Shown piece after piece: positions 3,118 through 63,652 of a stretch of 64,000 bases of DNA. The notes below the pieces were generated by a model. The model worked only from the letters and a program-made list of their open reading frames with translations. It had not been told where the DNA came from and did no database searches. Source of the DNA: Prostheceraeus crozeri (Eukaryota > Platyhelminthes > Polycladida > Euryleptidae). The position numbers and the translations under genes are program-made. Location of the stretch: contig CAJQUW010007764.1 in the NCBI GenBank assembly GCA_907163375.1, positions 176,584-240,583 on the forward strand. The letters run 5' to 3'. Numbering within the stretch: the first letter of the stretch is position 1; every line of letters starts with the position of its first letter.

Positions 3118-4757
3118 CAGATTGTTTCATAAAAAATGGATCACCCTTAAACATCGCCTTAACTTCAACTTTGTCTAACTCCGCCAAACTTGAACGAATT
3201 TCTCTGAAATTTGGAAGATATGTCAGTTGTGCTTATTAATATCATTGTTGGAAATTTCAAGCATGAATATTGAGTTGTTTTCCTGTTATAGATAAAAAAG
3301 TAGTAGATAATTTGATCTTCATTTAGCAATGTTACACAAAATCATACCTCACTCTTATAAAATTACATTTGTTTCCTTTGTTATGTGATATGTTGTTCTA
3401 CAAGCCAAAAGCTATCAAGCAAAACAAAAATAAGGAAAATCGGTCAATCAGAGCCAGTATAGCACCATTATTCATCAACAATAATGTAACTGCTACATGT
3501 GATTAACTGGACTTCATGTTCCATAGCTTCCTGACTTCGTTGCGGTGGTGTTGGCAGCACTCCTGATTGCTTTCAGCTAGAAATCTATCTGTTACCGGTT
3601 GAAAACAATACAAAGCACAAATGAACAATAACGAGATCGCATTCACAAAAGGCAAAGTGTCAGCCTTGCTAGAACTAGGGTTTTCTTTGCGAGCTACAAG
3701 CAAGCGACTAAATGTCCCTTACACAAATGTGCATCGATGGCATAATGATGATTTTCGACTCTGTCGTAAAGAGGGCTCTGGCCGTCCACGCAAAACATCC
3801 AAACGTAGAGACCGCCTAATTTTGAGATTTGTTAAAGTTGATCCAAGTCTCTCGTTAACTGAGATGGCTGCACTAGACTCGTCTATTTCTAAGTCCACTA
3901 TTCGTAGAAGACTTATTGAGTCGAATTTCAAGAGCTGTAAGAGGCCCTCTCAGATCGAATTATCAGATCAGCATGCAAAAAGACTTCTCAGATGGGCAAT
4001 GAGTCATTGTCACTGGCGAAATCAATGGGATCGGGTTGTCTGGTCTGATGAGGCATTAATGATGGTCGATTGAGATTATGGATAAAATCTGATCATGAAA
4101 TTCCGAGACATTAACATCGTCCCCGGGTACAAGGTGGTGCGACTCTACTGATTTGGGCTGGCATTTGGACCAATGGCCGCTCTGAACTTCACATACAGCA
4201 AGGAACCATGAATTCTGAACGCTATGTGAATGTTTTACGAATGAACATTGGCCAAATGACAGATCAACTTGGTGATCCATCGACTTGGTTATTTATGGAT
4301 GATAATGCTACGTGTCACAGGAGTAGTAGAGTCAACTTATGCAAGTCTCAATTAGGGCTTAGGACATTATCTTGGCCAGCTCGTTCTCCTGATCTGAATC
4401 CCATAGAAAATGGATGGAGTATTCTAAAACGTAACGTTCGTCGTTCACTGCTACCTACAGATGGCGTATCACAACTTACGTCACTGTTAAAAAGAGAGTG
4501 GAGAAAGTTAGATAAGTCAAAAATCAACGATATCATCGAATCAATGCCTAGACGAATTGGTAATGTCATTGACAATAAGGGTAGGGCCACAAAATATTAG
4601 CATCTTAAGAACCGTTACTGTATCATAGCTTATCAGATTATATAAGGACATTCAAATATATTAGGGACATGAAATAACATGAAAAATGCTTTCTGTATCA
4701 TACTTATGTTTTATTTAGTCAAATTTTAGGATGATCCACTTTTTATGAAACGGACTG
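3118..4757 (+). mobile_element. Tc1/mariner DNA transposon (1640 bp)
   Basis: The ends are imperfect inverted repeats of about 33 bp. The left begins CAGATTGTTTCATAAAAAAT, and the right, read on the minus strand, begins CAGTCCGTTTCATAAAAAGT. Both are flanked by TA (3116-3117 and 4758-4759), the Tc1/mariner target duplication. The length is normal for the superfamily and the single gene inside is a Tc1 transposase. It sits inside an FB1 repeat. The gene has a frameshift and a stop, so this copy is not autonomous. Confidence 0.93.
3621..4600 (+). pseudogene. Tc1-type DD34E transposase, frameshifted
   Basis: The start at 3621 gives an N-terminal paired-like helix-turn-helix (roughly residues 1-110) with the GRPRKTS linker typical of Tc1. 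The catalytic core follows: a first Asp in VVWSDEA (near 4040), a second in FMDDNATCH (near 4300), and Glu in SPDLNPIENGW (near 4405). Exactly 34 residues separate the second Asp from the Glu, the DD34E pattern. The gene is broken in two places. A frameshift just after WSDEA (about 4050-4060) moves the reading into the frame encoding NDGRLRLW. An in-frame TAA lies at 4112-4114. Downstream, the same frame runs unbroken to the stop at 4600. It once cut and pasted its own element through the TIRs at 3118 and 4757. Superfamily confidence is high; I cannot name the lineage. Confidence 0.92.
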
Positions 4758-25884: not shown

Positions 25885-26126
25885 CTTTTCTCTCTCTCTC
25901 TTCTCCCTCTCTCTCTCTCCTCTCTCTCCCTCTCACCTCTTTCTCTCTCTCTTCTCCCTCTCTCTCCCTCTCACCTCTTTCTCTCCTCTCTCTCCCTCTC
26001 ACCTCTTTCTCTCTCTTCTCCCTCTCTCTCTCTCTCTCTCTCTCCTCTCTCTCCCTCTCACCTCTTTCTCTCTCTCTCTCTCTCTCTCTTCTCCATCTCT
26101 CTCCCTCTCACCTCTTTCTCTCTCTC
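25885..26126 (+). repeat. TC-rich microsatellite/minisatellite
   Basis: The tract is (TC)n with recurring interruptions CCCTCTCACCTCTTTCTCTC. Long Ser/Leu-rich (plus) and Arg/Glu-rich (minus) frames here come from the dinucleotide repeat and are not genes. It borders CTCAAGAACTCAAGATGTTT on its right. Confidence 0.97.
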
Positions 26127-27069
26127 AAGAACTCAAGATGTTTATTAGTCAAAAACATTTGACAAAACATTGATGACGCTGGAATGAAATGATAAAATGA
26201 TACAATGATTCAGTGATGTTCATTCTCACGTGTTCATCGATATAAAATAAGTACGATGGGAGGATGATAAGATGGGCATGATGGGCAATTATGACGAAGG
26301 CAACTGTTGAATTCTGTGATTCTGCAATAACTGTCAAAGGTAAAATCACTGAGCGGAGAGGAGACATCATGCATGAAAAATAGATAGCATTTAGTATTTC
26401 ATCATGAATTTTGATTTTAACATATGCATTTAATGGTTTATACACAGTAGATAAATTTAACATGCAGCACTGTGATTGAGTACATGCATTTAATTATGAA
26501 GTTTTGAAAACATTACAACCGAGTAACCAAATCCACTTTCCAAGTAATCATGAGATGTTTTATATTGCATCAGATACACGAGATCATATTTCAAACATCT
26601 GTCTTGGTCTTTATGTTGAATATTTTATTTTAGTAATTGCTTCACATCTGTTGACAAACGCATCCACACGCATACACTGCCACGTTTCAAATCCACATTC
26701 GAATCATTTTGTGATTTATAATTATTTTATGGTCGAAGTCCGGCAATATATGAAAATGAACTCAAAATAGTCAATTTATATGACGGAAGAATATCAAAAT
26801 AGGAATATAGCGATTGCAAAATCATTATTTATAGTGAATAGACACACATAAACATTTACCTAACTATTGCAGCATATATGACATGTAGGTTTAACTCACC
26901 TGTAAGTGGAATGATTCAGAGATGGTAGGCAATGGAATATGATATATTCGTAGTTAGACCCGGACTTCGACTTCGACAGTTTTAGTAAGACACAATTTTA
27001 GGACTGAATGTTTATTTTCATGGAACGCATTCGTGAGGCGCTGAGTTGCATTCTTTGATGACGTAAATA
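26127..27069. other. no recognisable gene
   Basis: Unique AT-rich sequence between two TC tracts; 88-104 codon frames have no domain. Confidence 0.5.
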
Positions 27070-27291
27070 TTGATCCTCTCTCTTCTCTCTCCGTCTCACC
27101 TCTTTCTCTCTCTCTCTCTCTCTCCTCCTCTCTCTCCCTCTCACCTCTTTCTCTCTCTCTCTCTTCTCCTTCTCTCTCCCTCTCACCTCTTTCTCTCTCT
27201 CCTCTCTCTCCCTCTCTCCTCTTTCTCTCTCTCTCTTTCTCTCTCTCTCTCCTCCCTCTCTTTCCCTCTCTCTCTCTCCCTCTCACCTCTT

Positions 27292-27324
<33 letters not shown>

Positions 27325-27671
27325 TCTCCCTCTCACCTCTTTCTCTCTCTCTCTCTCTCTCTCTCCTCCCTCTTTCTCTCTCTCTCCTCTCTCTCCCTCT
27401 CACCTCTTTCTCTCTCTCTCTCTCTTCTCCCTCTCTCTCTCTCTCCTCCCTCCCTCTCTCTCCCTCTCCTCCCTCTCTCTCCCTCTCCTCCCTCTCTCTT
27501 CCTCTCTCCTCTTTCTCTCTCTCTCTCTCTTCTCCCTCTCTCTCTCTCTCCTCTCTCTCCCTCTCACCTCTTTCTCTCTCTCTCTTCTCCCTCTCTCTCT
27601 CTCTCCTCCCTCCCTCTCTCTCCCTCTCCTCCCTCTCTCTTACTCTCTCCTCTTTCTCTCTCTCTCTCTCA
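27070..27671 (+). repeat. TC-rich microsatellite/minisatellite
   Basis: A tract of about 600 bp built from (TC)n with repeated CCCTCTCACCTCTTTCTCTC and CCCTCTCCTCCCTCTC blocks. The 233-codon plus-strand and 149-codon minus-strand frames are translation artefacts of the repeat. Confidence 0.97.
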
Positions 27672-28107
27672 AAGACATATTGATCTATTGATCGAGTGTT
27701 TTATGTCATTGTTGTCTATGTTAAGATATGGCACATCCGTTTACAGTTGTCAAAAGTTGCTACAAAAATAGATCTATATCAACCGAGTACCTTGCTTTTG
27801 ATCTTTTAAAAACAGGAAGACTTAAGGCTAAGAAAATCAATTTTTCAAAATTCTCTACATTCATTACACAGTGTTTTATAAACTTGTCAGAAATCAAGAA
27901 CAACGCGACACAAATTCACTTCTGTCCATCAGTAGTTCCACTAATTTCAAAATTTATTTTGTAACACTGTTCAACCAATTTCTATCTCGTGAATTCAATT
28001 TTTCAGGTTTATATGATGCTTGAGTAATATTTCCTGCATAATTTTTCAATGCATCCTGATCGTAGTTATTTTTTTCAATGCATGATGCATGATGCATTTA
28101 CAATAAT

Positions 28108-28110
<3 letters not shown>
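27672..28110. other. no recognisable gene
   Basis: AT-rich spacer between TC tracts; nothing recognised. Confidence 0.5.

Positions 28111-28178
<68 letters not shown>
28111..28178 (+). repeat. (CT)n microsatellite
   Basis: About 34 uninterrupted CT units. Confidence 0.98.
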
Positions 28179-28179
<1 letters not shown>

Positions 28180-28304
28180 ACATAACGAAAACTACATTGA
28201 AAGTCGCGTCCTCCAGCAACGACTTTTTCCTAGAATCCTAAAACTAGGGGTACATCTTCACAACATTTGAGCGAGTAGTTTCTCCTTGTTCTGTCCGCTC
28301 CACT

Positions 28305-29200
28305 GTGCTCTCTCTCCCTCTCTCCGCTCTCTCTCTCTCTCTCTCTCTGTGTCCTCTCTCTCTCTCTCTCATATACTCTCAGTCTCTTTCACTCTCTCTC
28401 TCTCACTCACTCGCTCGCTCTCTCTCCCTCACTCAAGAACTCAAGAACGTTTATTAGCCATTTACTCGCTCTCTCTCTCTCCCTCACTCGCTCTCTATCT
28501 CTCTCTCTCTCCCTCACTCACTCTCTCTCTCTCTCTCCCTCACTCGCTCTCTCTCTCTTCCTCACTCACTCTCTCTCTCTCCCTCACTCGCTCTCTCTCT
28601 CTCCCTCACTCGCTCTCTCTCTCTCTCCCTCACTCGTTCCCTCTCTCTCCCTCTCTTCTCTCTTTCTCTCTCTCTCACTCACATACTCTCAGTCTTTTTC
28701 ACTCTCTCTCTCTCTCTCACTCGCTCTCTCTCTCTCTCTTCCCTCTCTCTCCCTCTCTCCTCTTTCTCTCTCTATCTCTCCTCTTTCTCTCTCTATATCT
28801 CTCTTTCTCTCTCTCTCTCTCTCACTCATATACTCTCAGTCTTTTTCACTCTATCTCTCCCTCACTCGCGCTCTCTCTCTCTCCCTCTCTTCCCTCTCTC
28901 TCCCTCTCTCCTCTTTCTCTCTCTATAAACCTCTCTTTCTCTCTCACTCATATACTCTCAGTCTTTTTTCTCTGTCTCTCTCTCTTTCCTCTCTCTCCTC
29001 TTTCTCTCTCTATCTCTCCTCTTTCTCTCTCTCTCACTCATATACTCTCCGTCTCTTTCACTCTCTCTCTCTCTCCCTCTCTTCCCTCTCTCTCCCTCTC
29101 TCCTCTTTCTCTCTTTATCTCTCCTCTTTCTCTCTCTATCTCTCTCTCTCTCTCTCTCACTCATATACTCTCAGTCTCTTTCACTCTCTCTCTCTCTTTA
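28305..29200 (+). repeat. TC-rich minisatellite with CTCACTCATATACTCTCAGT units
   Basis: About 900 bp of (TC)n with recurrent CTCACTC blocks and at least five copies of CTCATATACTCTC(A/C)GT followed by CTTTTTCACTC or CTCTTTCACTC. It is interrupted at 28434-28470 by ACTCAAGAACTCAAGAACGT plus TTATTAG. The 312-codon frame across it is an artefact. Confidence 0.96.
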
Positions 29201-30385: not shown

Positions 30386-30465
30386 ATATTACCTTTCAAT
30401 TGATCAGCCTAAATCGTCGGCGCGTAGCGTTGGACGATTTAGGTTGATCAATTGAAAGGTAATAT
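30386..30465. repeat. hairpin palindrome with GC-rich apex (H1)
   Basis: The arms 30386-30418 and 30433-30465 are 33 bp each with one mismatch (a G:T pair in RNA). The 14-base apex is GGCGCGTAGCGTTG. The arms are AT-rich and unlike those of the other hairpins. Confidence 0.9.
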
Positions 30466-30643: not shown

Positions 30644-30883
30644 AAGTATGGCCATAGACTTCTTAATATCATTGTGTGGCCGACAAATAGGACGCTAGGA
30701 TATCTAGCATCTTCCAGATGGAGATGAATGTATAGAATAATTATTTCCACGAAGAATAAAAAGTCAAATTTTCAGTACGAGGAGTGATATCGTTGTCGAG
30801 AGAGCGCAGCGATCTCCATCTGGAATGTGTTAGATATCTTAGCGTCCTATTTGTCGGCCAATAAGAAGTCTATGGCTATACTT
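30644..30883. repeat. inverted repeat (H2), 240 bp
   Basis: Left arm 30644-30725 and right arm 30812-30883 match inverted, except for a 12-base bulge in the left arm. Shared blocks include CCATAGACTTCTTA, GGCCGACAAATAGGACGCTA and TTCCAGATGGAGAT. The 86-base centre has a GC-rich end (GAGAGAGCGCAGCG). It is MITE-like and non-coding. Confidence 0.88.
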
Positions 30884-47776: not shown

Positions 47777-49343
47777 TTACTCTATGACGTAGGGTTTAGT
47801 ATATTCCCGAATTATAATGAACCGGTTCCGGTACCGATATTTTGAGAGTAGAATTATAATGAATTTATGAAACCACCACTAGCAATAAAATTGTCAGTGT
47901 GTAAGACGAATAATTTGCGGTCCGATGCATTGGATCAGTCACTTTGAGTAGAAAGAAAGGCTAAAATCAAGCTTCATGAATTTCCTCCATACTAATTTCT
48001 TATACTCTTTGCTACTTTTCACGAGCAGATAAAGTAGCAACTTCAATAAAGTAAATTTGATATTGGCATTGTTTTACAATTTATGTCTTTTAAAACGTTA
48101 ATGTACGAAATTGAAAGAATTGTTAAGTAAAACTCTTTTGTCCAAGTGGAGGTTGAATATCCTGAGGCTATATTTCAAACTACTACTTTCTTTCGTGAGA
48201 ACTAGGTAAAATAGTTGTAATGATGTAGGAGGAACAGAAATCAGTGTTATCAGCAATGCGGTCCTTTTATTGGTAATACTGTTAATTTAGGGTAAACTCG
48301 GTTAGCGTGGCAACTTCCCAGATTTCGCTTGTAATAATTTATTCGAATTGACCACGTATGATTAAGTCACATCATCATAGCAGTTTGGAAATAATAAAAT
48401 TCAATAGTTTAAATGCATGATAAATCAATATCTAATCCTTTTTGATGAATTTTTCATGAAACGTCATGGTTACCAGTAGGCTTGTTTTTAAAGACATTCT
48501 AAATATCTTTATGCGCCTACGACTTCATGATCAGTAATTAATGATAAGCAGTAGTCATACCGCAGAAAAATGTGGTGTATGAATAATTATCTTCATAGCT
48601 TCAGTTTCTTCATTATACAGAATACGAGTGTTTTGAAACTATGAAAAGTTCCCTACATCACATTTGTCTATGGTATGACTATTTTGTACAATAGTTATCA
48701 ACACAAAGCTTTGATAAATCATATTGTATTTCACTCTCGATGGCTTTGAAGGTCATAGAAATGATTGAAATTAGTTTGAAATGCATTATTGCCCGGCATT
48801 GAAGGGTATATAACATCCTTCTATCGCTCAGTAGGACATTATCAGCTTCAAATTGTTATATGCATAATCCAAAAATTTGCATTGCGGCAATGGAGACAGT
48901 ACAGTATGTTCCAATGGGATTTCAATGCTTAAGCAGATAATGTCCGAAAAAATATCTATATGCATAAGAACCCTAGAGACATAATATCAGACTAGCGGTT
49001 TTTTGCGTAAATTACGCAAGTGGTATTGAAATGTCAGGAGGAGCCCGTCCAAGTTGTTTTTTCCATCGTTTAAAGTGTTAAAGTTTTGATCTAAGAAATG
49101 TGATGACAGTTGATGTAATTTTCTCGATAGCCTAGATGTAATATCATGTTGTTGGCTTATTTTTAGTCAGACAATATAATATATGTACAGTAACCCTAGA
49201 AATTTGCATTCTAGTTAAAAAAGAGTATCACGTTTCAACATTTCCTATAATTGAATAAGTCATTAATATACATGTACATGGCAAATAATCAAAGGCTATT
49301 GATAACTGATCGTTCATGCACTCGTACAGTTTACTGGCCGATT
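47777..49343. other. no recognisable gene
   Basis: AT-rich non-coding sequence downstream of the first Crypton gene; nothing recognised. Confidence 0.5.
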
Positions 49344-50606
49344 TCAAGTATAGTCCCACTGGAAGTAATAATTTTTATTTTTTTTTCGTGAATGTCCATC
49401 ACCAATACTATTCAAATCAATCTGGTTGCTATCGATATTTTTTTCTGCTCCTTGAATTATCAAGGATGCGGTGTTTGTTTGGTCTTTTGAAATGCGTTTA
49501 TAGCTGTTAACGCCTTTTCCACTACGATGACCTGTCATTTTCATTATTATTTTACTGTCAAGTCCTGCGGCAAACATACGAGTTGCCGAACTAGCACGCA
49601 AAGAATGAGTGGTATGATATCCGCTGTATCCGGCCTTTTTCATTATGTCGCCAACCATAGACTCATTTGTGTGCAAGCCTACCGGCTGAATGGAATACCA
49701 CACATTTCCTCTCGCGTTTACTAATGGCCGAAGGTATAATCGCGAAACCCCTGGAGGACGATGACTTAGATATTTTTCAAATATATGGGGAGGGCTTTTG
49801 TCTTTATCGTTTCGATTTTCAATCGCTCTCACTTCCTTTATGTCACTATTGATGTTTTTCAGTGTTCCACTCTGGTTCTTCGACTTCTTTTCGGAAAAAA
49901 ATACTTTCATTCCATCTTCATTACTAACTTCAAATTGATCAATTGTTAAAAGTGAATGTTCGGAGCCACCACGTAAGGGGAAGCTCACGCCAACAGTAAA
50001 TAGGATGGTGTTCAGCAGTTTTTGTGGCGTGTCAGAACCCAGTAATCCCATTTACCATAAATTATCCTCTTGCTCCTTGGTGATAATTTCTGCCTGTTTC
50101 TTTGGAATATTCATTCCCGCGGCCGCTGATTTCGCCATCATTGAATCAAGGCAGCCTCTGATGGCTTTGAACTTGCCATCACTCAAAAAATGATAATTTT
50201 CATTTTTATGATTCATGTTGATGTACTGCTGTAGTTGTAATACCAATTCCTTCAAAGTTTTTGACCTAAATATGCAACCCTTTTTATCTTTTATTTCGCA
50301 AATAAAGCGAGGGACTGCAAAGTTTAACTCTTCAATTGAAAAATCTTCTATTGGTTTCTGAGGTATACGAAAGTTTTCATCGGGATTCTCATTCCTTTTT
50401 TGTCGCCAAGAATCAAAATGGCGATACGCCCATATTCTTTTGGATTTCGTGCTAAAAGGAATGCTTCCTAACGACAACTTTTCAATTTCTTCATCTGTTG
50501 CGAAATTAATATCATCTGCTGGTATATCATCAGCAATCAACCTAGATTTTATGTCCAAATTAAAATCAGTAATCTTCCTGGTATTAATATTAAAGCAGTT
50601 ATTCAT
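49344..50606 (-). pseudogene. Crypton-type tyrosine recombinase 1, one in-frame stop
   Basis: One reading frame runs from ATG at 50606 to 49344, broken only by a TAA at 50052-50054, right after EQEDNLW and before MGLLGSDTPQKLLNT. The first 184 residues form the N-terminal core-binding part. The following 235 residues hold the catalytic domain. Counted from the Met after the stop, the catalytic residues are Arg27 in PLRGGSEH, His149-x2-Arg152 in HTTHSLRASSATR, His175 in MTGHRS, and nucleophile Tyr184 in VNSYKR. This is the DUF3504-like recombinase of Crypton transposons and their domesticated relatives. The enzyme would cut and rejoin DNA through a 3'-phosphotyrosine. The full catalytic set and a single stop suggest recent loss or a sequencing error. 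It ends in a short basic tail. Confidence 0.9.
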
Positions 50607-50690
50607 CTTGCTTCAGCAACAAAATGACAACAGTATTAAATGTATGGAAATCTTGAATTTTGAAATATTATTTCCATGTTTATAGCCCAG

Positions 50691-50795
50691 AACCATAGAA
50701 AGAGGTTAAGCTAGATATTGTACAACATCTATCACTTAATACAACTATATCAATTTCAGTTGAACCATAGAAAGAGGTTATGCTAGATATTGTAC
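50691..50795 (+). repeat. 33-bp direct repeat
   Basis: AACCATAGAAAGAGGTTA followed by (A/T)GCTAGATATTGTAC occurs at 50691-50723 and 50763-50795 with one mismatch. The second copy overlaps the start of the hairpin H3. Confidence 0.9.
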
Positions 50796-50889
50796 TCATA
50801 TTGGAATTATTGACATAGAATGTCCTTGGCGCTATACGCGCCTCGGACATTCTATGCCAATAATTCCAATATTCGTACAATATCTAACA
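50781..50889. repeat. hairpin palindrome with GC-rich apex (H3)
   Basis: The arms 50781-50825 and 50845-50889 are about 45 bp each with few mismatches (inner block GACATTCTATG). The 19-base apex is TTGGCGCTATACGCGCCTC, itself able to pair (GGCGC with GCGCC). Confidence 0.92.
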
Positions 50890-51219
50890 CATAATGCACC
50901 ATTATACGCCCGCCAATTTCACATAGAATTCTCACCGTGCCAGATAGCCATGAACCGTCGTCCGTCACTCTAGCTTGAGAATCCATTAATGAATGAATTG
51001 GTGAATGGACATTTCAGATCATTTTTTGATAGAAATCTGAATTCAAATCTATTCACATTTGCAAACATTCATAGACTTTCAAACTTTTCATGAATCAAAA
51101 TCTATTTAGAGAGAAAATTTTCATAGACTTCAATCAAAGATTTCTTCATCTCTCCAATGTCTGTTACTAACAGTGATCGATAAATGCAATATTCATAGAC
51201 TTGTCAAGAGTTACATACA
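50890..51219. other. no recognisable gene
   Basis: AT-rich spacer. CATAGACTT occurs three times (about 51069, 51122, 51195). Confidence 0.55.
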
Positions 51220-51300
51220 ATGGACTCCTAGATAGTTAACAGCACCTGGACGGATAGGTCAATGAATTATGCTGTCTGCGCTATACCAACCACGGCGGAC
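51220..51300 (+). repeat. P element left TIR
   Basis: Outer ATGGACTCCTAGATAGTTAA, then ACCTGGACGGATAGGTC, ending ACCACGGCGGAC (51289-51300). It pairs with 55025-55094. Confidence 0.85.
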
Positions 51301-51511
51301 TGATTCATTGCTTCGTTGTGTCCGCGTAGATCGGACGTCAGATATCTTCACTGCAGGTAGTGATGGGCACCAGTCAACGCATCATTATTAGTCAGTCAAT
51401 GATCACTGCACTCTTTGTTATAGCAACCACGGCGGACTATTGAAAGGATTTTGCTAACTGCTCGTTTTTCTATTGCAAGTTTCGTTCAAAGAGTTATATT
51501 ATTAGAGAGTC

Positions 51512-54500
51512 ATGCCAAATAGATGCTCGGCATATGGTTGTCGCAGTGGCCTCGATCCACCAGAAAATGAGCAAGGAATTTCGTATCATGCCTATCCCCT
51601 AAATGAACCCGAGAGACTCCGACTGTGGATATCCAGAAATCCCAGGAAAAACTTTACCCCCACAAAGCATTCCTACTTGTGTTCTCGACATTTCATACAC
51701 ACAGATTACGCTGAAGAGCGTCAGGATTCCAACAAAAACCGTGTGAAGAACCGATCTTCAAAACGAAAATTGAGGTTACTGAAAAAAACGGCTGTTCCCA
51801 GTGTTTTTCCAAATGCACCGTCTTACCTCTCCACCGCCCCTTCTATTGAACGAATGACATCAGCCACCTCAAGCAAGAGATTGAAGCTTTCGAATGATCG
51901 GCTGGAAGTGAAAATAGAAGAATTCATGGAGAGCGATCGCCTTTCTTCCCTAGCTGATCTTAAAGTGGGACTGTCATCTAATGATCTCTGCATACCATCT
52001 GGATTTTTGATGAAATTTGATGAAGATTCGGTTTACCTCTTTTATATTGTCACCGAAAACTTGCCCATCATCAAGGCGAGTCTGCGGATTGATGGTGACT
52101 TGACTGTAGCAGTTTTCGTCGATGATCATGCCATCCCGGAAGATAACTACAGCGACATTGCTGCGAACTCGACTGTGTCCTCGATATCTCAAGTTTTGAA
52201 CTTGATGTCGAGAGCAAAGCATTTATCTGACTCGAGAGATATTTGCATCGATTACGCCGACGAAGTGATTGGCAAACTGGAGCAGTGGCGAAGTGCTTCT
52301 CAATCAGATCAACTCAGTGAAAGCCTCAACTTTCTCATCGAGCAAGTTTTGCTTTTGAACAAAAGTAAATTTGCAAGGTCGTACTCGTCTCAGCTGATGG
52401 TGATGACTTACCAAATTCATGCAGCTAGTCCCGCGGCCTACGACTTCCTCTATCAGCAAAAAATCCTCTGCCTTCCGTCTGTCTGCACCCTAAAAAAACT
52501 GACCAGAAAGCTGTCAACAGATAGTGGACTTCAAATTGAAAACTATCTCTGATTGCGCACTGCAAAGCTTGATGGACGCGATTGCAATGTGCTATTGATG
52601 ATCGACGAAGTTTACTTATTCAAACGAATAGAATATAATGGAAACCAGGTTCATGGGATCACTGAACATTTAGAACCTGCATCCACTATCTTGTGCTTTA
52701 TGATCAAGTCGCTGAAGGGAAAATATCGAGATGTGGTTTCGCTCTTTCCCATCAATGTCCTGACGGCCGACAAACTGCGCAAGTGTTACGAGGAGACAAT
52801 GAAAACCTTGAGGAAGGTATCTTTGAATGTGGTCGGTATCTCGGTTGATAATGCGACTGTGAATCGGAAATTTCTTGTTGATCTCTGCGGAGGAGAATTG
52901 CAATCCTATATTTTGGATCCAGTGACAGGGCAACCAATATTTCTTTTCTTCGATCCTGTCCATGGAATTAAGAACATTTACAACAATTTTCAGAAGAGAC
53001 GAACCTTTACTTGTCCCCCTATGCCTCACTACTTTCCGGATGGCTGTTCACCCAGCTTCGATCACATTGTTCAGCTATATGAACATGATCAATGACCCTG
53101 AAAAAGGCTTACAAATTGACGCCTGCAGTGCTTCAACCGAAAAGCATTGAGAAAACTTCGGTAAAGCTGGGACTGCGTATATTCTCTGAATCCACCAGGG
53201 ATGCACTTGTGTATTATTCCGAGCACGAAGAGAAGCCATGGGTCGATACGGCGAACTTTATTTCGTTCGTAATCAAAATGTGGACAATTTTGAATGTCAA
53301 AACGCCGAACAAAGGAGAACACAAGCGCAACATCGCCGCAGACCCGGTTCGCCATGCGTCTGACTGGAAATTGGGGTTTCTTGAGGAGTTTTCCGAGTTT
53401 CTTCAGGTAAGACTACAGAAAATTTTGAGATGATGTATAATTCGTATGATTCATAATAATATTCTATAGTAAGATTCATAGTAATTCATATACCCGGTAT
53501 TTTTTCCTTTACAAATGCAATATTCATTTATCGCATTCTGAGACATAGGCCTAACTGTACAACATACAATTTTGATGCGTTAGCATGCAGGTGTAGCTGT
53601 GCATGCGTAGGAATCTGATTATGAAGCATGACTATTTTGAAATCAAATAATCATCGTAGGCCTTACGTGCTAGCTCCTTACATGATACGATCAGATAGAT
53701 GGAATAGCGACGTATACTAGACAGTCGCCACACAAGTGATATGAATATGCTGAATCATCAGGATTTGTGAATATACCGTACATGTCTAGCAAGACAAAAT
53801 ATCGCAAATGCATGATTGTTGATTTATTTCTATTTGATCATATTTGTCTATATTTTATTTACAATCTAAGAAATCCATCAATTTATTTTCCAGAGATGGG
53901 AAGATTCAAGGAAACCTGGTCTTTCAAAACAGACATTTCTCGCTCTTCGGCACACTTGTACTGCCTTGTCCCAGTGCTGTTACTATATGTTCACGCGCCT
54001 CGAATTTGATTATATTCTTCTTGGAAAACTGCAGTCCGATAACATTGAATCTCGCTTCGGACATTACAGGCAGCTCTCTGGAGCCAATTATTTCATTTCG
54101 GTCCGAGACATTGTGCAGAGTGAGCGCAAGATACACGCGTTATCACTTCTCAAGTTCTCCAATGTCACCATACAAGATATTGATGCCGCCTTACAGGACC
54201 AGGGTGAAGAACAAGACAAGGACATGCTGAAAATGGCGAGTGAAATTGGAGAGGCGCTTCAAATGGATTATGATCCAACCACTAGTGAGCAGAGCACAGT
54301 CTTGTTTGTCTGTGGTGCCATTTGCAGGAGTACATTGAACACAACAAAATGTGAATCGTGTAAAGCAATCTTGTGCCGAGATAACCGAAAGCTCGAAAAC
54401 AGATTTCGCGTTCAATGTGTGTCTCTTTTCCTTCTGCGTTTTTCAGGAACTGCAAAGCAATGCCATGATGAGGACTGCCTTGCTTCAGTCCACAAAGCAA

Positions 54501-54740
54501 CGGCAACTCTTCCATCAAATTGTAGAATACGCCATGGATGAGTCGTTTTTCTCCGAAGTGATATTTGGACATGACATGTGTAGCCATGGTCACAAGGTGT
54601 TTTCATATATTGTACAGAGATTTTTTAATACCATGATGAAAGGATTGACCACGAATCTGACGATTGATGCTTCAACAGTAAAACAGAAGACCACTTGTTC
54701 CGACCGAAAAATTGCAAAAGTGAGCAATAAAAGAAACTGA
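51512..54740 (+). pseudogene. P-element transposase (THAP domain), two exons, broken
   Basis: ATG at 51512 opens a THAP zinc finger with Cys5, Cys10, Cys57 and His60 of C2CH, Trp39 in LRLWISR, and an AVPSVFP box near residue 95. A helical region follows. The frame meets a TGA at 52550-52552 and continues in frame with LRTAKLDGRD. RNase H-like motifs follow: LLMIDEVYLF, VVGISVDNATVNRKF and FFDPVHGIKNIYNNF. A frameshift near 53090 leads into KLTPAVLQPKSIEKTSVKLG. Exon 1 ends at 53406 (CTTCAG/GTAAGA). Exon 2 starts at 53894 in phase with RWEDSRKPGLSKQTF, then LGKLQSDNIESRFGHYRQLS and GANYF. The C-terminus switches frame at about 54447 (after TTTTTCAG), giving VIFGHDMCSHGHKVFSYIV. The protein would have excised and reinserted the element; this copy is inactive. 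Confidence 0.88.
53407..53893 (+). other. intron of the P transposase gene (487 bp)
   Basis: The donor CAG/GTAAGAC at 53407 and acceptor TTATTTTCCAG ending at 53893 join two phase-0 exons. Protein homology resumes directly at 53894. Confidence 0.8.
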
Positions 54741-55024
54741 TTGGATGAAAATGACTTGTTCTTCCGTAATTGTTTTCCATAGCACTATATTTTCAGTAGT
54801 GGGATATTTTCAGCATTGGGAATATTTATACAGTCTATTCCCTGTGTTCATCGAGAATAATTAACATAACGCAGCTTCATATCTTTAGTATCTATCTTTA
54901 ATATCATATCTTTTCATGACCCGTGAAGATCTCTGATAATTACAAAATAGCAGATCACTTTTACCATTTTAAGTTTACTTCACTGCACAAAAGACAGTAA
55001 CTGCGGTGAATCTGATTTAGCTTT

Positions 55025-55094
55025 GTCCGCCGTGGTTGGTATTGGCGGAATTCGACCTATCCGTCCAGGCACTGTTAATTATCTAGGAGTCCAT
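55025..55094 (-). repeat. P element right TIR
   Basis: GTCCGCCGTGGTTGGTATTG, then GACCTATCCGTCCAGGC and TTATCTAGGAGTCCAT. Inverse of 51220-51300. Confidence 0.85.
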
Positions 55095-55200
55095 GCATTA
55101 TATCATGGATTATGCGGGCAGAAATATCAGGCAGTCTCGGCTGCTAACGCAGCCTCGCCTATGTCTGATATTACTGCCCTAAAAATCCATGATATAATGC
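55095..55200. repeat. hairpin palindrome with GC-rich apex (H5)
   Basis: The arms 55095-55133 and 55162-55200 share GCATTATATCATGGATT and GGGCAG-AATATCAG. The apex region CTCGGCTGCTAACGCAGCCT folds on itself (GGCTGC with GCAGCC). It directly abuts the outer end of the P element's right TIR. Confidence 0.9.
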
Positions 55201-55364
55201 TACATTATAATTCATCTCAGCATAAGATTTCTACATTTTGCCGGACAATATTGCTCTTTAAAGGATGCTCATTTTAACTATGTCACGTTTTAGATAGGAG
55301 GGAAAATATCTTGTATTTCATATAAAATTTATACTTCTTAACAAATAAATATCTATTGCAAGAG

Positions 55365-55553
55365 AGTGCTAGATGACTCCAGACTACATGTACATAGAAA
55401 ATAGTAAAACTGACCATGAAGGTGGCATTACGGACTATCATGGACTCCTAGATATTAAATCTCTACTATCTATGAGTCCATGAAGATATGACATTATGCT
55501 TTATGTTGGCTAAAATATCAAATGAAATTTCGCAGTTGGAGTCATCTAGCGCT
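55365..55553. repeat. nested inverted repeats with a P-TIR-like core
   Basis: The outer arms AGTGCTAGATGACTCCA (55365-55381) and its inverse (55537-55553) match at 16 of 17. Inside, TCATGGACTCCTAGATA (55439-55455) and its inverse (55467-55483) form a 45-bp palindrome whose arm repeats the first bases of the P element TIR. Confidence 0.85.
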
Positions 55554-55634
55554 ATCTTTTTTCATACAAGGAAGTAAAAGTCAATAATGTTTGAAATTGT
55601 CAACGCTGAAGCATTCAAAGATTTGGGGTTAGTA

Positions 55635-57723
55635 TCACCTATAAGGGACTTCAATAATGATCCCACTTGGACATTTGATGACAATTTTGTCACTTGCAGC
55701 TGGCACGTCCGTTGGTTGATTTTGTTCATTTTTGTTAGCTAAATTCACATTACTATTGGTTAATATGTTTGATGTTACTTTTTGCATGTTTGTTGAGTAA
55801 TCATTGTAAGTCAAAACACAGTCTGAGCGATGACCAGTCACTTTTTTTGCCATTTCTTTATTTCCGGTGGCATTCATGATTCTGGTCACCGTAGTTTTTC
55901 TGCATGACTGATTACTATATTGGTCATCTTCTCCCGCAGCCTCCATCATGTTTCGTATGGTTGCCGTTAAAGAATTGTGTCCCAGAGGTTGGTTCACAAA
56001 CCAAGTGGTAGCTGTCGGCTTTGGATGAGGCTGGAGGAAGAACGCATTGGTCGTATCGTTAACAGGACGCAATGAACTGTAAAAGATAAAGAGATTTACC
56101 AGGCACTTTGAAGGATCATCACTTTTGAATACAGTTACTGTTTTTGGCACGACGTGATGTTCATGAAGAGCTCCCTTATACGTTTTTGATATATCCTCCC
56201 TGTATTCGAGCACATCGTCACCCTCTCTTCGAGTCAAGGTCAATTGAGCATTTTCTCCCCATTTTAGATTGCGTAGCTCCTTTCCCCCACGAAGTCCACA
56301 ATTAACTCCAATCAGGCAAATCAACGTCCTCGTGAGTTTTCGAGGATTATCGCGACCGAGATATTGTCTCTCCCATAACCGTGTTTCTGTGGACAGGGGC
56401 ACCGGCTTCGCCTGCTTCTTCGTTAGGGAAACTCCAGCAGCGGTATTGACTTTCATGGCTGCGTCCAACGAACTCCTTGTTTCCAGGAAAGCAGGATCAT
56501 CAAACACCTGTAATGACAAATTAATTTGATTTAGAATAGATTAATTATAATATTACCGCTATGTTTTTTAACTCGTAGTTTGTAATGAAAGTCGACATTG
56601 CAAACAAGTAATTTTTTCCACTATCCTCATTCCTAGTTTTCGGAAGGAAAAGTAATTATATTTATTTCATAAAAACAGAGTAGCATCACGAACTAAATAA
56701 CAATAAAGTTACACAAGTAATTGAAATGGCAAAAGTACCTTGAGAAGTACCGGTACATGATAAATTTATGAATATAGCAAAATCTTTATAAAATAAATTC
56801 ATCTTTTCAATCAAAAAGCATTATCAAATATTTCAATTAAACTATATTTGCATGCTATTAAGAAAAATTGATTCCACTTTCAAACTCAAAAGAAGGACTT
56901 TCACTTCAACCAATAAAGGGAACTTTTGCGATAAACTTCAGTTACAAAAAAAGAAGTTTAGTATAAAAGATTAAAATCATTCCTTCCTCTTGTATAGGCC
57001 AACATTTTGTGAATAATATCTGCATGCATGTGCATAACACAAATATTGTAGGAGTTTTATTAATATGAAGAATAAAATGCTACTTGTTCAACAGCAGCTA
57101 ATCAGGAACATACATTTATATATCTACTTGTATAGGCTACCAAATTCCTTTGCCTATATATCTTATTTTTCATAGTCAGTTGATCATAATTTAATTCTAA
57201 AATGAGTACGAGAATAAAAATAATAGAAAAACCATTGTTGAAACTTGCATTACTTCACAATATCGATTTAATAGAAGCTATATTTTTTTCCAACTTTATG
57301 GCAGTTTAAATTTATGATTAATTTTTTCCAATTTTAGCGTCATAAAAATCGTCTTACCTTCCAATCCAACTTGCGTTCGCTTCTGATGTATCTTTGGATT
57401 CCGCATAGTAATAGTCGTAGAGTTTCACCCGGGTACACATCGCCGTTCTTCTTTCTAACTTCATGAAAGAAAAATTTCAATGCCAGGTTCAAAGTGACTT
57501 TGGAGATGAACTCCAATTTTTCATGACCATCGCTTGAACGGTCCGATAGAAACATAAGGTCCTCTGAACCGTTTTCTAAAATTGTTGTATTTCTTTCCTT
57601 GAGCCAGTCGTCGAATACTTTTCTTGCCCAGTAGTTCTGATTCATGGTGTTTTGAGGAATGGTGGTCTTCCGTATCTTATTCAGCTCTTCAGTTGTAATA
57701 GGTGTGGCGTGTCTTTTTGTCAT
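55635..57723 (-). CDS. Crypton-type tyrosine recombinase 2, two exons, open
   Basis: Exon 1 (57723-57358, 122 codons) starts ATG-ACAAAAAGACAC and ends in KLDWK at AAG/GTAAGAC. Exon 2 (56507-55635, 290 codons plus stop) begins VFDDPAFLETRSS after TCATTACAG. The 412-residue product has no internal stop. The N-terminal part contains a FDDWLKERN segment typical of the core-binding domain. In the catalytic part, Arg195 lies in CGLRGGKELRN, Arg325 in SNQSCRKTTVTR, His348 in VTGHRS and Tyr356 in VLTYNDY. The usual His before the second Arg is Gln322 (NQSCR for NHSLR). It would cut and rejoin DNA if active. The other catalytic residues and clean splice sites make this the best candidate for a working or domesticated gene here. 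It lies 540 bp beyond the P element. Confidence 0.87.
56508..57357 (-). other. intron of Crypton recombinase 2 (850 bp)
   Basis: The donor AAG/GTAAGACG (57357 downward) and acceptor TTGTCATTACAG/GTG (ending 56508) are canonical GT-AG. Both exons are in phase 0. It is AT-rich with no coding content. Confidence 0.85.
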
Positions 57724-58212
57724 GATTTCTTTGACCGTGTTGCTTTGCGATGGTAAACTATCTTAAAAGAAATGCCTATCCGTCTGACCCTAGAATGACG
57801 TCCAAAACTTTGATTTTGAATTTTGAATGCAGATCAGTGACCTAAATGAAAGAAGCCATATCCATAGAATTAGTACAGATGTACCTATCAAAAGGGTCAA
57901 ACTTCTAGCTATCTTTGATATCTTGATTTCCAACATAGACGTCTCTTGATTTCCCAATACTTTCTTCTTCTTCTTCTGTTTATATTTAGACAATTGGAAG
58001 TCTATGACTTAGAAATAGATTTCTTAAGAACGAAGCACTATTAACGGAAATCCATGGACATCTATCTACATTCTCAATTTAGAAAGGACATTTGATCATA
58101 GATAACAAACAATCATTTTAACAAATTGTCCCTGGCATTTTAACAATATTGTCCCTCCATTAACAAGCTGTCCCTCTCTCTGATTGGCTGAGATGAGCAT
58201 CCTTTAAGTATG
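57724..58212. other. no recognisable gene
   Basis: Upstream flank of Crypton 2; nothing recognised. Confidence 0.55.
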
Positions 58213-58338
58213 TTACAGGAGGATATCTCTATGACTGTATGGGAAATACCTCGGTGTATACCTCGGCCTACGGCCTCGGGATTTTAACATAGTTATACAC
58301 CTCTGTATTTCCCATACAGTCATGATATCCTCCTGTAA
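58213..58338. repeat. hairpin palindrome with GC-rich apex (H4)
   Basis: The arms 58213-58260 and 58294-58338 share TTACAGGAGGATATC, ATGACTGTATGGGAAATAC and GTGTATA. The apex begins CCTCGGCCTACGGCCTCGGG, which can fold on itself. Confidence 0.92.
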
Positions 58339-59470
58339 CCTTAACTTGTTGCAATATTGTCCGGGAAATGCTATGCAATTCATGTGGAAGGAAAAATCCC
58401 AATATGCCCGCTATCACAGATGTTTCAGCGATTCATTAATTAATTACATTGAATTAAGGGTTGCCATTGTAGGCTATAAAATTATTGCTTAAGCGAATCA
58501 CAAAGCAAATTTCTCCATGACCAAAGAATGAGATCCTTTTTTGTTTTTTACCTTTCCATTGGTCCGCCATTTGGATCCACCCATCGTCTATTGTTGTTGA
58601 TGTGAAGCATGGATTCAATACATTCAAGTGCGTAGATGAAACATTTATTTGGGTCCTGTGATCGTGTGACTTCACATGCAAAATAACACTGGCAGCGATT
58701 CGTGGGGAGATTTGTGTCTAGGTCACAAGATACCATCTACTTTCAGAATGAGCGAGATTTTCATGCACATGCTATGTCCTCTGGTACATTTCATGCATCA
58801 CATCAGTATCCTACGACCATCGTGACATAAATTTTGATTGGAAATTTAAATCGCATCAATGGATGTTGAATCAATTACTTGAGCTACATGTTAAAATGTT
58901 CATGGATGATAAAAATACCTTTTCTCAAATCCTTCCTTGAAGATTAGCATTCCGGATGAAAATATTCTCAAATTTGTTGTCTTTTCACTAGAAATGGTGT
59001 CAGTTAATTGCTATCCATTAATGAAATTCACATCATAAACAAATTCTCCTCTCTCATTCGGCCGCCATTTTTTGAAATAGAGTTGATGAAACTTATGAAA
59101 GTATAAATAAGCAAAGCGAATGAATCACAAGTACTCGAATTCACACCATTATGTTCACTAACTTTTCACTACTTTCCTTACTTATGTTGACTAGCAATTG
59201 CTAGATGCAACCTGTAGTCTGAAAAGTTTTGATCAATCTGACATGAAACTTCCTCTGCTAGGAGTTTGAATTCTAATGTTCTATGTCATATTGAACATAA
59301 TGTTGTCATTTTTAACACAGTCCGAGCCATTACCTTGGATGAACTATAACAGGAATATTGTCACTGTTTTATCGGATAAATAATGCAGATATCCTATGAT
59401 CGAAATTACTCATATTACAAGTGCTATCTATTCTAATCCAAATAAAATTCTAGCACAAACCCATTCTTTC
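58339..59470. other. no recognisable gene
   Basis: Non-coding; 62-75 codon frames at 58454-58736 overlap in different frames and have no domain. Confidence 0.5.
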
Positions 59471-61912: not shown

Positions 61913-63450
61913 AGTTAAGTCTGCTGTCTACCGTGCGTGCTTCTTGTATGAGTGATTCGAGAAAAGTGATCAAGCTACGGTTTACAAAACTATCATCCAT
62001 GAATTTTTTGAATTTTGAAGGTAGTCAACCTTTGCAATATTGTCAGATTATGCTAGTGAAGAGATCTAGGAACTGTAGTCATAGACTTCTTGAGGCTATC
62101 ATTCAAAGACTATGAAATGACCCATGGACTTCTTATTAAATAAACATGGATGTCAATGATCCCTTTATGGATGTCTAGGCGCAAACTAAGATTTAGAAAA
62201 ATAATGTACACATATCTAGGAGTTATGTACTATGAGCATGAGTATGAGTAATTTATGAAGCACTATCAGTACTACGAAGCATTAATAGAAAGCATTGATA
62301 TAGATTTCATCTTTTTTGGGTTAGAATGCCAACAATATCCACTTTTATCGGACATAAATGCAAAATTCCTAACGTGTCCTCGGAATCTATGCACTTATGT
62401 CCTCTAAAAGTGGATACTCTTCCTATATTATTGTCCTCTAAACCATAGAAATTAACAGTACCATAGAAAGTCCTAGAATGGAAATTACATGAAAATTATG
62501 GCACACGCCGGGGGAACTTAGTTGGGGCAAAAGCTAGTCGTACGAGCTGGTTTTCTTGTTTTCTGGTTGGCATTTATATTTATCAAACCAATTTGTGATC
62601 TGGAATGATGCCAAAATGCAATGCCAATCATGCCTTTGTGTCCAAAGATCATGTAGACAAAAGCAATAATGAATTTACAAAATACTGCGGCGACAGGATG
62701 ACAAAGAAGGAAATAAGCGTTTAAGTTCATCATTTTGAAATATCACTCTTATAATCCATCAAGAGTAAAATCAGACACATATGCAACCTGTAATTCTGAT
62801 TTACAGAACATATATTGCTCCAGCTTGAAACCAGAGGGCAATAAGACTTCGAGTATTCATTTCGCTCTAAAAGGAGTCCTGTTCACTATATTTGAACAAT
62901 TTTCAAAATCTTTGTATGCTTTCGAATATCAGCTTACAAAATATCATCACACTGTATCATATATGTCATTTAGTGATTAATTGAAAAGTTCCAGCGACAT
63001 TTCATTTATTTGAGAAATAAATGTTGGTAAAGAAGCTGTCAATGTGTTTATTCCAGAAAAACGCTAGGTTTCGTAACCGCTTGAAGGAGAAATTATCCAA
63101 TAATTAGAATTTTTATCTGTTAATTCTTGAGATGTTCTTACAACCAATACACCGACCACTTTCAATTATGACTGTGGACCAATTTATAATTTGCATTCCA
63201 ATGTTGAAAAATAGTATAATAGTTGCTGATAACTGCTAAAAATAGACACAGTATATTAATCCATGGAATAGTGGGCTATTTTAAATGAAGCGATGACACC
63301 ATCTCACTTAAAAAACTTCATGAAAATTATGTAATTTGTGTGACAATTTCCGCAACCAACTAGGCAAATAGTTTGACTATGATGCAATGTTTTAGATCGA
63401 ATCTGATCTGCAGCCTATAGATTTTTCCATGTGCCATCATTGTACATAGG
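61913..63450. other. no recognisable gene
   Basis: Non-coding. An 81-codon plus-strand frame (62735-62980) and a 71-codon minus-strand frame (62518-62733) lack recognisable domains. Confidence 0.5.
62471..62532 (+). repeat. short interspersed repeat (ACTAGAATGGAAATT family)
   Basis: CCTAGAATGGAAATT, then CACACGCCGGGGGAACTTAG and TTGGGGCA match 10640-10722 (minus strand) and 43296-43372, with an internal difference. Confidence 0.65.
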
Positions 63451-63652
63451 CAAGATATCAAACTTCCATTCTAGTGTACTATTATCCACTTCTATGCTCT
63501 AAACTATGACAATATTCATATATTATCAACCTCCTAGGAATGTGTTCTATGTAAATCTCCAATCTGACAATTTGCAATATCAATACGGAAATTGATCAAA
63601 TGGTGTCATAGAAGTAGATAATAATACATTAGAATGGAAGTTTGATATCTTG
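63451..63652. repeat. inverted repeat with 46-bp arms
   Basis: CAAGATATCAAACTTCCATT onward (63451-63496) and its inverse (63607-63652) match with few differences. It is MITE-like and non-coding. The arms contain CTAGAATGGAAGTTTG-like sequence. Confidence 0.88.

Follow-up and report, generated by a model that had tools for sequence, protein, structure and literature searches.

In a 64,000-nucleotide stretch of the genome of the polyclad flatworm Prostheceraeus crozeri (GenBank assembly GCA_907163375.1, contig CAJQUW010007764.1, positions 176,584 to 240,583 of the forward strand; hereafter the window), four long palindromes are the right ends of mobile elements, which we call A, B, C, and D, and each palindrome belongs to a multi-copy element of its own. 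Two of these elements bear a recombinase gene. This goes beyond the first-pass annotation of the window, which had seen the palindromes but not the larger elements that they terminate. We consider it probable that these palindromes terminate, on the right, Crypton-type transposons and their nonautonomous relatives, and that the bottom strand of these ends would, once folded, be recombined by the element's own recombinase.

The four palindromes were present where they had been annotated, with arms 87-97% complementary in the ungapped part that was found, and their tips had been read correctly, but listed in an order other than that of the coordinates. We analyzed them in a survey set composed of the window and 111 fetched loci (~357 kb) of the 2.05-Gb genome; these loci come from searches seeded with the elements themselves and are not a random genome sample. 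Genome-wide, first-look candidates numbered 1011 for palindrome A (partly a 72-bp tandem repeat), 1438 for B, 387 for C, and 2911 for D. As the sequence to the left of the palindrome was conserved in the copies examined and the sequence to the right changed from copy to copy, the palindrome marks the end of the element. Comparison with empty sites defined the whole of elements A and C, and no long duplication was seen at these sites. Wherever both ends were mapped, the palindrome was only one end of an element of 0.5-3 kb, which sets these elements apart from the palindromic miniature inverted-repeat transposable elements (MITEs) of DDE transposons, in which the palindrome makes up the entire element and a target duplication of constant length flanks it.

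The first-pass annotation had described a shared tip on unrelated arms and had proposed either that the arms arose by inverted duplication of the target flank or that the tip is under structural selection. The tip is indeed common to nearly unrelated arms and looks structurally selected. The dissimilarity of the arms is almost, not entirely, complete, with a mean local score of 9.33 across 10 families versus 8.22 for shuffled arms. Contrary to what had been expected, the arms do fall into multi-copy families; in line with expectation, the apex is far commoner in palindromes than by chance. Flank duplication as the origin of the arms is ruled out by the empty sites of A and C, which hold neither arm. 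Some arm copying does occur, but within existing elements: in loci L048 and L077, the place of the outer left hairpin arm is taken by the outer right arm in reverse complement, which suggests copying through a folded state. The inverted repeat H2 (30644-30883), which had been thought a possible relative of the hairpins, was rejected: it is a separate multi-copy family whose longest arms are 86 nt apart and which lacks this apex.

An earlier apex scan, which accepted any hairpin with a stem of 4-7 bp, a loop of 3-5 nt, and mutually complementary outer arms, yielded for the most part a single kind of tip, N-CTC-stem-T(N)NC-stem-TCG-N, with some variants. A search of the survey set for palindromes without any tip filter found 107 palindromes, which group into 28 clusters by sequence. 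The apex C(TN{1,2}C)G occurred in 18 of the 28 clusters, versus 115 of 3340 random hairpins (3.4%) from the same sequence (binomial 4e-20), and it was still found in 14 of 24 clusters when the four given families were excluded (5e-15). Beyond this mechanical rule, two more clusters (family P and the palindrome in L034) fit by eye, and 8 clusters do not. The unfiltered finder overlooked hairpins that were visible in other scans (families F1 and H), and the recurrence of the window's four palindromes in L001, L009, L029, and L049 affects the cluster sizes, not the cluster number. In the window, the tips of A, C, and D are decayed: A has TATAC for TAC, and C has lost part of its left side. The commonest form of the tip is TAC, present in 6 of 9 cluster members of A, 16 of 20 of C, and 17 of 23 of D, window copies included.

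Read on the opposite strand, the loops become GTA, GAA, GGA, GCA, GTTA, and GTAA closed by C-G, that is, C(GNA)G or C(GNNA)G; the CTC/TCG internal loop likewise reads as a tandem G-A. In predicted folds of the GNA strand, with one representative per cluster, 23 of the 30 two-by-two internal loops were GA/GA and none was TC/TC; several clusters have two GA/GA loops per hairpin. Tandem G-A pairs of the sheared type are stable. The GNA strand was the bottom strand, with the body of the element placed to the left, in all ten families whose right end was mapped (A, B, C, D, F1-F4, H, and P). Two subfamilies of P (L070 and L084) differ at three base pairs within the outermost 17 bp of the stem, and all three differences are compensated, as judged by eye. 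The loop sequences and their G-C closing pairs match the GNA and GNNA mini-hairpins of DNA, described as extraordinarily stable when at least two G-C pairs are present (PMC4686876); the molecules described there are short oligonucleotides, not transposon ends.

In the scanned open reading frames (ORFs) of A and C, the only domains recognized were DUF3504/Phage_integrase and QRICH1, and Pfam detected DUF3504 and QRICH1 in A, in C, and in pieces of five further families; the recombinase pieces that were compared are 28-33% identical to the A recombinase. The gene of element A contains one in-frame stop in the window, and an open copy of 428 aa is found in L004. Its LRGG (Arg), HxxR, GHR, and Tyr motifs are in place by eye. 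The best solved relative of the recombinase in the PDB was QRICH1 (E 1.7e-23), and Foldseek, started from a predicted model of the A recombinase with a predicted local distance difference test score of only 60, returned QRICH1 and then XerA. By their sequences, A and C classify as Cryptons, with a tyrosine recombinase (R-H-R-Y motifs in A, Q for the first His in C) and with neither reverse transcriptase nor DDE transposase in the ORFs scanned, and the domain and structure matches place the recombinase in the CryptonA/DUF3504 clade. QRICH1 itself contains a recombinase domain domesticated from a Crypton (Kojima and Jurka, 2011, PMC3212892). Element B carries no recombinase gene.

In both A and C, the recombinase gene lies on the minus strand with its upstream end facing the hairpin. 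The genome holds 3484 first-look DUF3504 candidates, 150 of which were scored, and those listed exceed the curated cut-off. From these, 19 stretches upstream of the gene (18 of 2.6 kb, one of 1.1 kb) were chosen by hand for diversity, not at random. A hairpin was found upstream of the gene in 17 of the 19, and these hairpins represent six families: F1 (L071, L075, L077, L082, L086), F2 (L074, L078, L083), F3 (L076), F4 (L079), H (L080), and P (L069, L070, L073, L084, L085, L087). Two scripted finders together detect 14 of the 17; the hairpin of L080 came from the apex scan, and those of L082 and L087 were found on folding, with the apex then confirmed. The hairpin lies ~0.65-1.1 kb upstream of the DUF3504 match in 16 loci, and that of L082 is flanked by two genes in head-to-head orientation. 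None of the 14 segments examined from the opposite side of the gene contained a palindrome within the element. Three palindromes on that side lie outside the element (two in L095, one in L102), and a further two, in L091 and L100, span the left end because the hairpin of another element abuts there.

Both ends were mapped for A and C and for two to three copies each of F1, F2, F3, F4, and H; one of three right-end stretches of F4 (L099) lacked the hairpin of the element and was set aside. The left end of these seven families has no hairpin of its own. Instead, its opening 10-20 bases form the reverse complement of the stretch immediately before the left arm of the hairpin, with a pairing score of 11-17 for an element's own ends versus a mean of 7.3 and a maximum of 11 for 42 mismatched pairs. 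The left end of B (48723) obeys the same rule by eye. When the right end and the left end were folded together, a single hairpin with a stem spanning the junction resulted in 7 of 7 families, some bases close to the cut remaining unpaired. In a circle, the stem would accordingly be predicted to run across the junction, and the integration cut would fall inside it. Head-to-tail junctions of a single family exist in the genome for B (L015, L024) and C (L039); L048 (C) and L077 (F1), at first candidates for such junctions, are the arm conversions mentioned above and were excluded from the count.

Elements also meet end to end. Among 14 left ends, two (F2 in L091 and F4 in L100) lie within ~2 nt of the right arm of another family's hairpin, which has the same kind of apex (oriented positions ~1041-1189 in L091 and ~1018-1146 in L100), and these elements are thus stacked end to end like cassettes. 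In L069 (722-928), a hairpin of family P stops ~4 nt short of a D hairpin, an arrangement that reads as the insertion of one element into, or close to, the hairpin base of another. In 81 unique right flanks, position +2 was T in 76 (94%), +1 was A in 63 (78%), and +3 was A or T in 86%, where some of these bases may belong to the element itself; without five rearranged or head-to-tail loci, the counts were 71 of 76 for T at +2 and 62 of 76 for A at +1. Both ends show a two-nucleotide NT in which the T is nearly constant. The base before this T differed between the ends in 8 of 20 copies (by eye, L048 excluded), as expected if the base at one end came from the circle and that at the other from the target.

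These features can be joined into a mechanism. The element would leave as a circle or as a single-stranded copy, and its junction would fold on the bottom strand into one long hairpin, with the apex serving as the nucleation and stabilization point that makes this strand fold. The element's own recombinase would recognize the folded strand and cut it inside the stem, near the base, between AC and NT. The cut end would be joined to a weak target, between C and ATW, and the distal piece of the stem would remain at the other end of the element. As only one strand would be exchanged, replication would be needed to complete the reaction, just as when an integron cassette is inserted. In each family, arms and recombinase would co-evolve.

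Several observations weigh against this reading. The evidence comes from one genome and from sequence analysis. The arms of different families are slightly more alike than shuffled arms, and the best pair across the 10 families scores 17 versus a shuffled maximum of 15. Element D has no G-A internal loop, A has CTT/TCG instead of CTC/TCG, and the apex of L073 is lost. Nearest-neighbor DNA energies of the apex favor the bottom strand in 8 of 9 families, with D equal, by a small margin of 0.3-1.1 kcal, and those of the whole hairpin favor it in 6 of 7, with F2 opposite. In family P, two inner changes of L084 are uncompensated, and L085 combines the left arm of one subfamily with the right arm of the other, mismatched. 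F3 and H have end-pairing scores of 11, no higher than the best mismatched pair, and this value was also obtained for one of 21 interior controls (in H). In the C recombinase, Q replaces the first His of the HxxR that is present in A, and the upstream stretches of two of the 19 DUF3504 loci (L072, L081) contained no hairpin. Finally, the ratio of nonsynonymous to synonymous substitutions between A copies is near 1 (~0.9 versus the window copy and L003, ~0.56 versus L006), so that little protein constraint is seen among these copies and the ratio is uninformative.

Known systems share parts of this anatomy. With CryptonA elements, A and C have in common the DUF3504/QRICH1-type recombinase, recombinase-type domains as the only ones recognized, and the lack of ordinary terminal inverted repeats, with short direct repeats possible at the ends. 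Kojima and Jurka (2011, PMC3212892) describe animal Cryptons as devoid of both direct and inverted terminal repeats, and neither palindrom nor hairpin nor stem appears in their main text; a later paper gives short direct repeats as a feature of Crypton ends (PMC3627910). Unlike published Cryptons, the present elements carry a long strand-specific hairpin at one end, and their other end pairs with the base of this hairpin. We found no report of a Crypton terminal hairpin in the open-licence literature of PubMed Central. Helitron2/Helentron elements likewise have a hairpin near one end and an asymmetric inverted repeat that pairs the other end with the sequence before the hairpin (PMC3627910), but they encode RepHel and no DUF3504 tyrosine recombinase.

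A close parallel in anatomy is the attC site of bacterial integrons. Like attC, the right ends are imperfect palindromes at one end of a mobile unit, with an asymmetrically marked bottom strand and freely varying arms; the cut, as deduced here from the anatomy, would lie inside the base of the stem and leave the remainder at the other end; and little sequence is conserved beyond the boundary triplets (AAC/GTT in attC, AC before NT here). Judged by these features, the ends would have the makeup of an attC site, namely a one-strand palindrome, a cut near the stem base, and a remainder at the opposite end, and, like cassettes, the elements can sit end to end (L091, L100). In contrast to integrons, where the integrase is encoded outside the cassette, the recombinase gene lies inside A and C. 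A folded single-stranded substrate for a tyrosine recombinase is also provided by the attP hairpin of the CTX phage, which is used by XerCD; this is a phage with a host recombinase and not a transposon end. In attC, the reaction is confined to the bottom strand, sequence conservation does not extend beyond the boundary triplets, strand choice depends on extrahelical bases, and the apex is variable (PMC2727003), whereas the apex is conserved here. We tentatively suggest, with somewhat less confidence than in the reading as a whole, that animal Cryptons might be a eukaryotic counterpart of integrons, in which a folded bottom-strand hairpin would be recombined, site and recombinase would reside in one element, elements would occasionally stack, and the arms would diverge with the recombinase while the mini-hairpin tip and the G-A mismatches are kept.

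In a classical alternative, Crypton recombination would be double-stranded, and the palindrome would be a paired array of recombinase-binding sites, in duplex or cruciform, with a tip that binds a host or element protein. This agrees with the published Crypton model of an extrachromosomal circle with short direct repeats as substrates (PMC3212892) and with the candidate short NT repeats at both ends of the present elements. A duplex site, however, has no reason to display GA/GA and GNA on one strand, to keep a fixed strand orientation relative to the element in 10 of 10 families, or to let the arms vary freely between families, and we regard this explanation as unlikely. It is quite improbable that the elements are Helitron2/Helentron-like rolling-circle elements with a recombinase as cargo, the hairpin being a replication terminator and the left end an asymmetric terminal inverted repeat. 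The 5' repeat near the end does pair with a repeat just upstream of the 3' hairpin, as described for Helitron2 (PMC3627910), but A and C measure only 2-3 kb, their scanned ORFs gave recombinase-type domains or nothing, and neither Rep nor helicase was found in the two A ORFs of at least 150 aa or in three of the five listed C ORFs of at least 60 aa. The 3484 genomic first-look candidates for DUF3504 compare with 58 for the Helitron Rep domain, and the position of the hairpin ~0.65-1.1 kb upstream of the match in 16 of the 19 loci would be unexpected for captured cargo.

The bottom strand is also the sense strand of the gene, and the hairpin could act as RNA, with the apex as a 5'-leader structure that regulates recombinase expression. 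The gene points away from the hairpin in A, in C, and in the six recombinase families that were sampled, and the GNA strand would therefore be mRNA-like if transcription starts outside the hairpin. What makes such a role very improbable is that the palindrome stops precisely where the element does and its stem extends over the circle junction, that B retains the hairpin though it is only ~0.53 kb long, and that the loops are mostly GNA triloops, a DNA-type mini-hairpin. We give scarcely any credence to the view that these are ordinary palindromic MITEs whose tips converged by mutation bias at hairpins, not by selection. Arm-to-arm copying, as seen in L048 and L077, could favor short stable loops, but a bias is not expected to produce 23 GA/GA loops versus no TC/TC, to keep one orientation, or to place hairpins beside 17 of 19 chosen recombinase genes.

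The features of the window are compiled in Table 1. Element A and a transposon with THAP and TNP-like RNase-H domains both sit inside one copy of B, and C adjoins B just past its right end. The THAP transposon (51221-55094) has inverted ends and is inserted just before the hairpin of B.

Table 1. Elements, recombinase genes, terminal hairpins, and apices in the window (window coordinates)
Feature	Position	Strand	Description
Element A	48810-50890	-	putative autonomous-type Crypton, ~2.08 kb; copies and empty sites; left end ATAAC.., right end (with the hairpin) ..CTAACAC; minus-strand gene
A tyrosine recombinase gene	49344-50603	-	QRICH1-like N part, DUF3504/Phage_integrase C part (Pfam)
A terminal hairpin	50781-50889		
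A apex	50825-50845		CTT GGCGC TATAC GCGCC TCG (most copies: TAC)
Element B	48723-55203		nonautonomous, ~0.53 kb net of A (48810-50890) and of the THAP/RNase-H transposon (~51221-55094)
B terminal hairpin	55095-55200		
B apex	55136-55157		CTC GGCTGC TAAC GCAGCC TCG
Element C	55257-58345	-	putative autonomous-type Crypton, ~3.09 kb; copies and empty sites; left end TTTAAAGG.., right end ..CCTTAAC
C recombinase, DUF3504 C-terminal part	55635-56519	-	Pfam
C recombinase, QRICH1-like N-terminal part	57340-57723	-	separate ORF; QRICH1 E 9.7e-10
C terminal hairpin	58213-58338		part of left arm near apex lost in window copy
C apex	58262-58278		CTC GGCC TAC GGCC TCG
D terminal hairpin	30386-30465		element D mapped at right end only (~30471)

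Further observations concern the surroundings of these elements. Element C interrupts the middle of an older inverted repeat (55236-55256, CCGGACAATATTG, and 58346-58370, CAATATTGTCCGG), which is uninterrupted in L010 and L011. A target can be used recurrently, as D in L060 (1440-1520) occupies the same GGGTATAT site of B as A does in the window (48800-48812). Sequence like that of element A just before its hairpin has expanded elsewhere into satellite-like 72-bp tandem arrays of several kb (C13924:29338-35766 and C13832:64326-69965). A repeat of ~1.05 kb at 62436-63499 has copies of 82-83% identity in L015, L025, L027, and L030, beside or inside B and C. The window further contains long CT-rich tracts with strong strand skew (25889-29197) and an ORF with a Tc3-type transposase helix-turn-helix domain (3621-4070). 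Outside the window, 13 Helitron Rep-domain fragments form a mostly regular array on C998 (158128-191624), ~2.7 kb apart with one gap of ~3.0 kb. A single COX1 match (L112, C6227:15880-17400, on a 100.7-kb contig) has codons that fit mitochondrial code 9 (AAA=Asn, ATA=Ile), with AGA read as Ser and TGA in frame; AAA stands at a site that is Asn in animal COX1, and ATA at sites that are mostly Ile.

How animal Cryptons recognize their ends has been an open question, and the hairpin offers a concrete, testable substrate. The structure also gives a computational rule for locating the ends of Cryptons and their nonautonomous copies. To our knowledge, folded single-strand recombination is otherwise known only from bacteria and phage, and the elements of P. 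crozeri would make a case for such recombination in animals.

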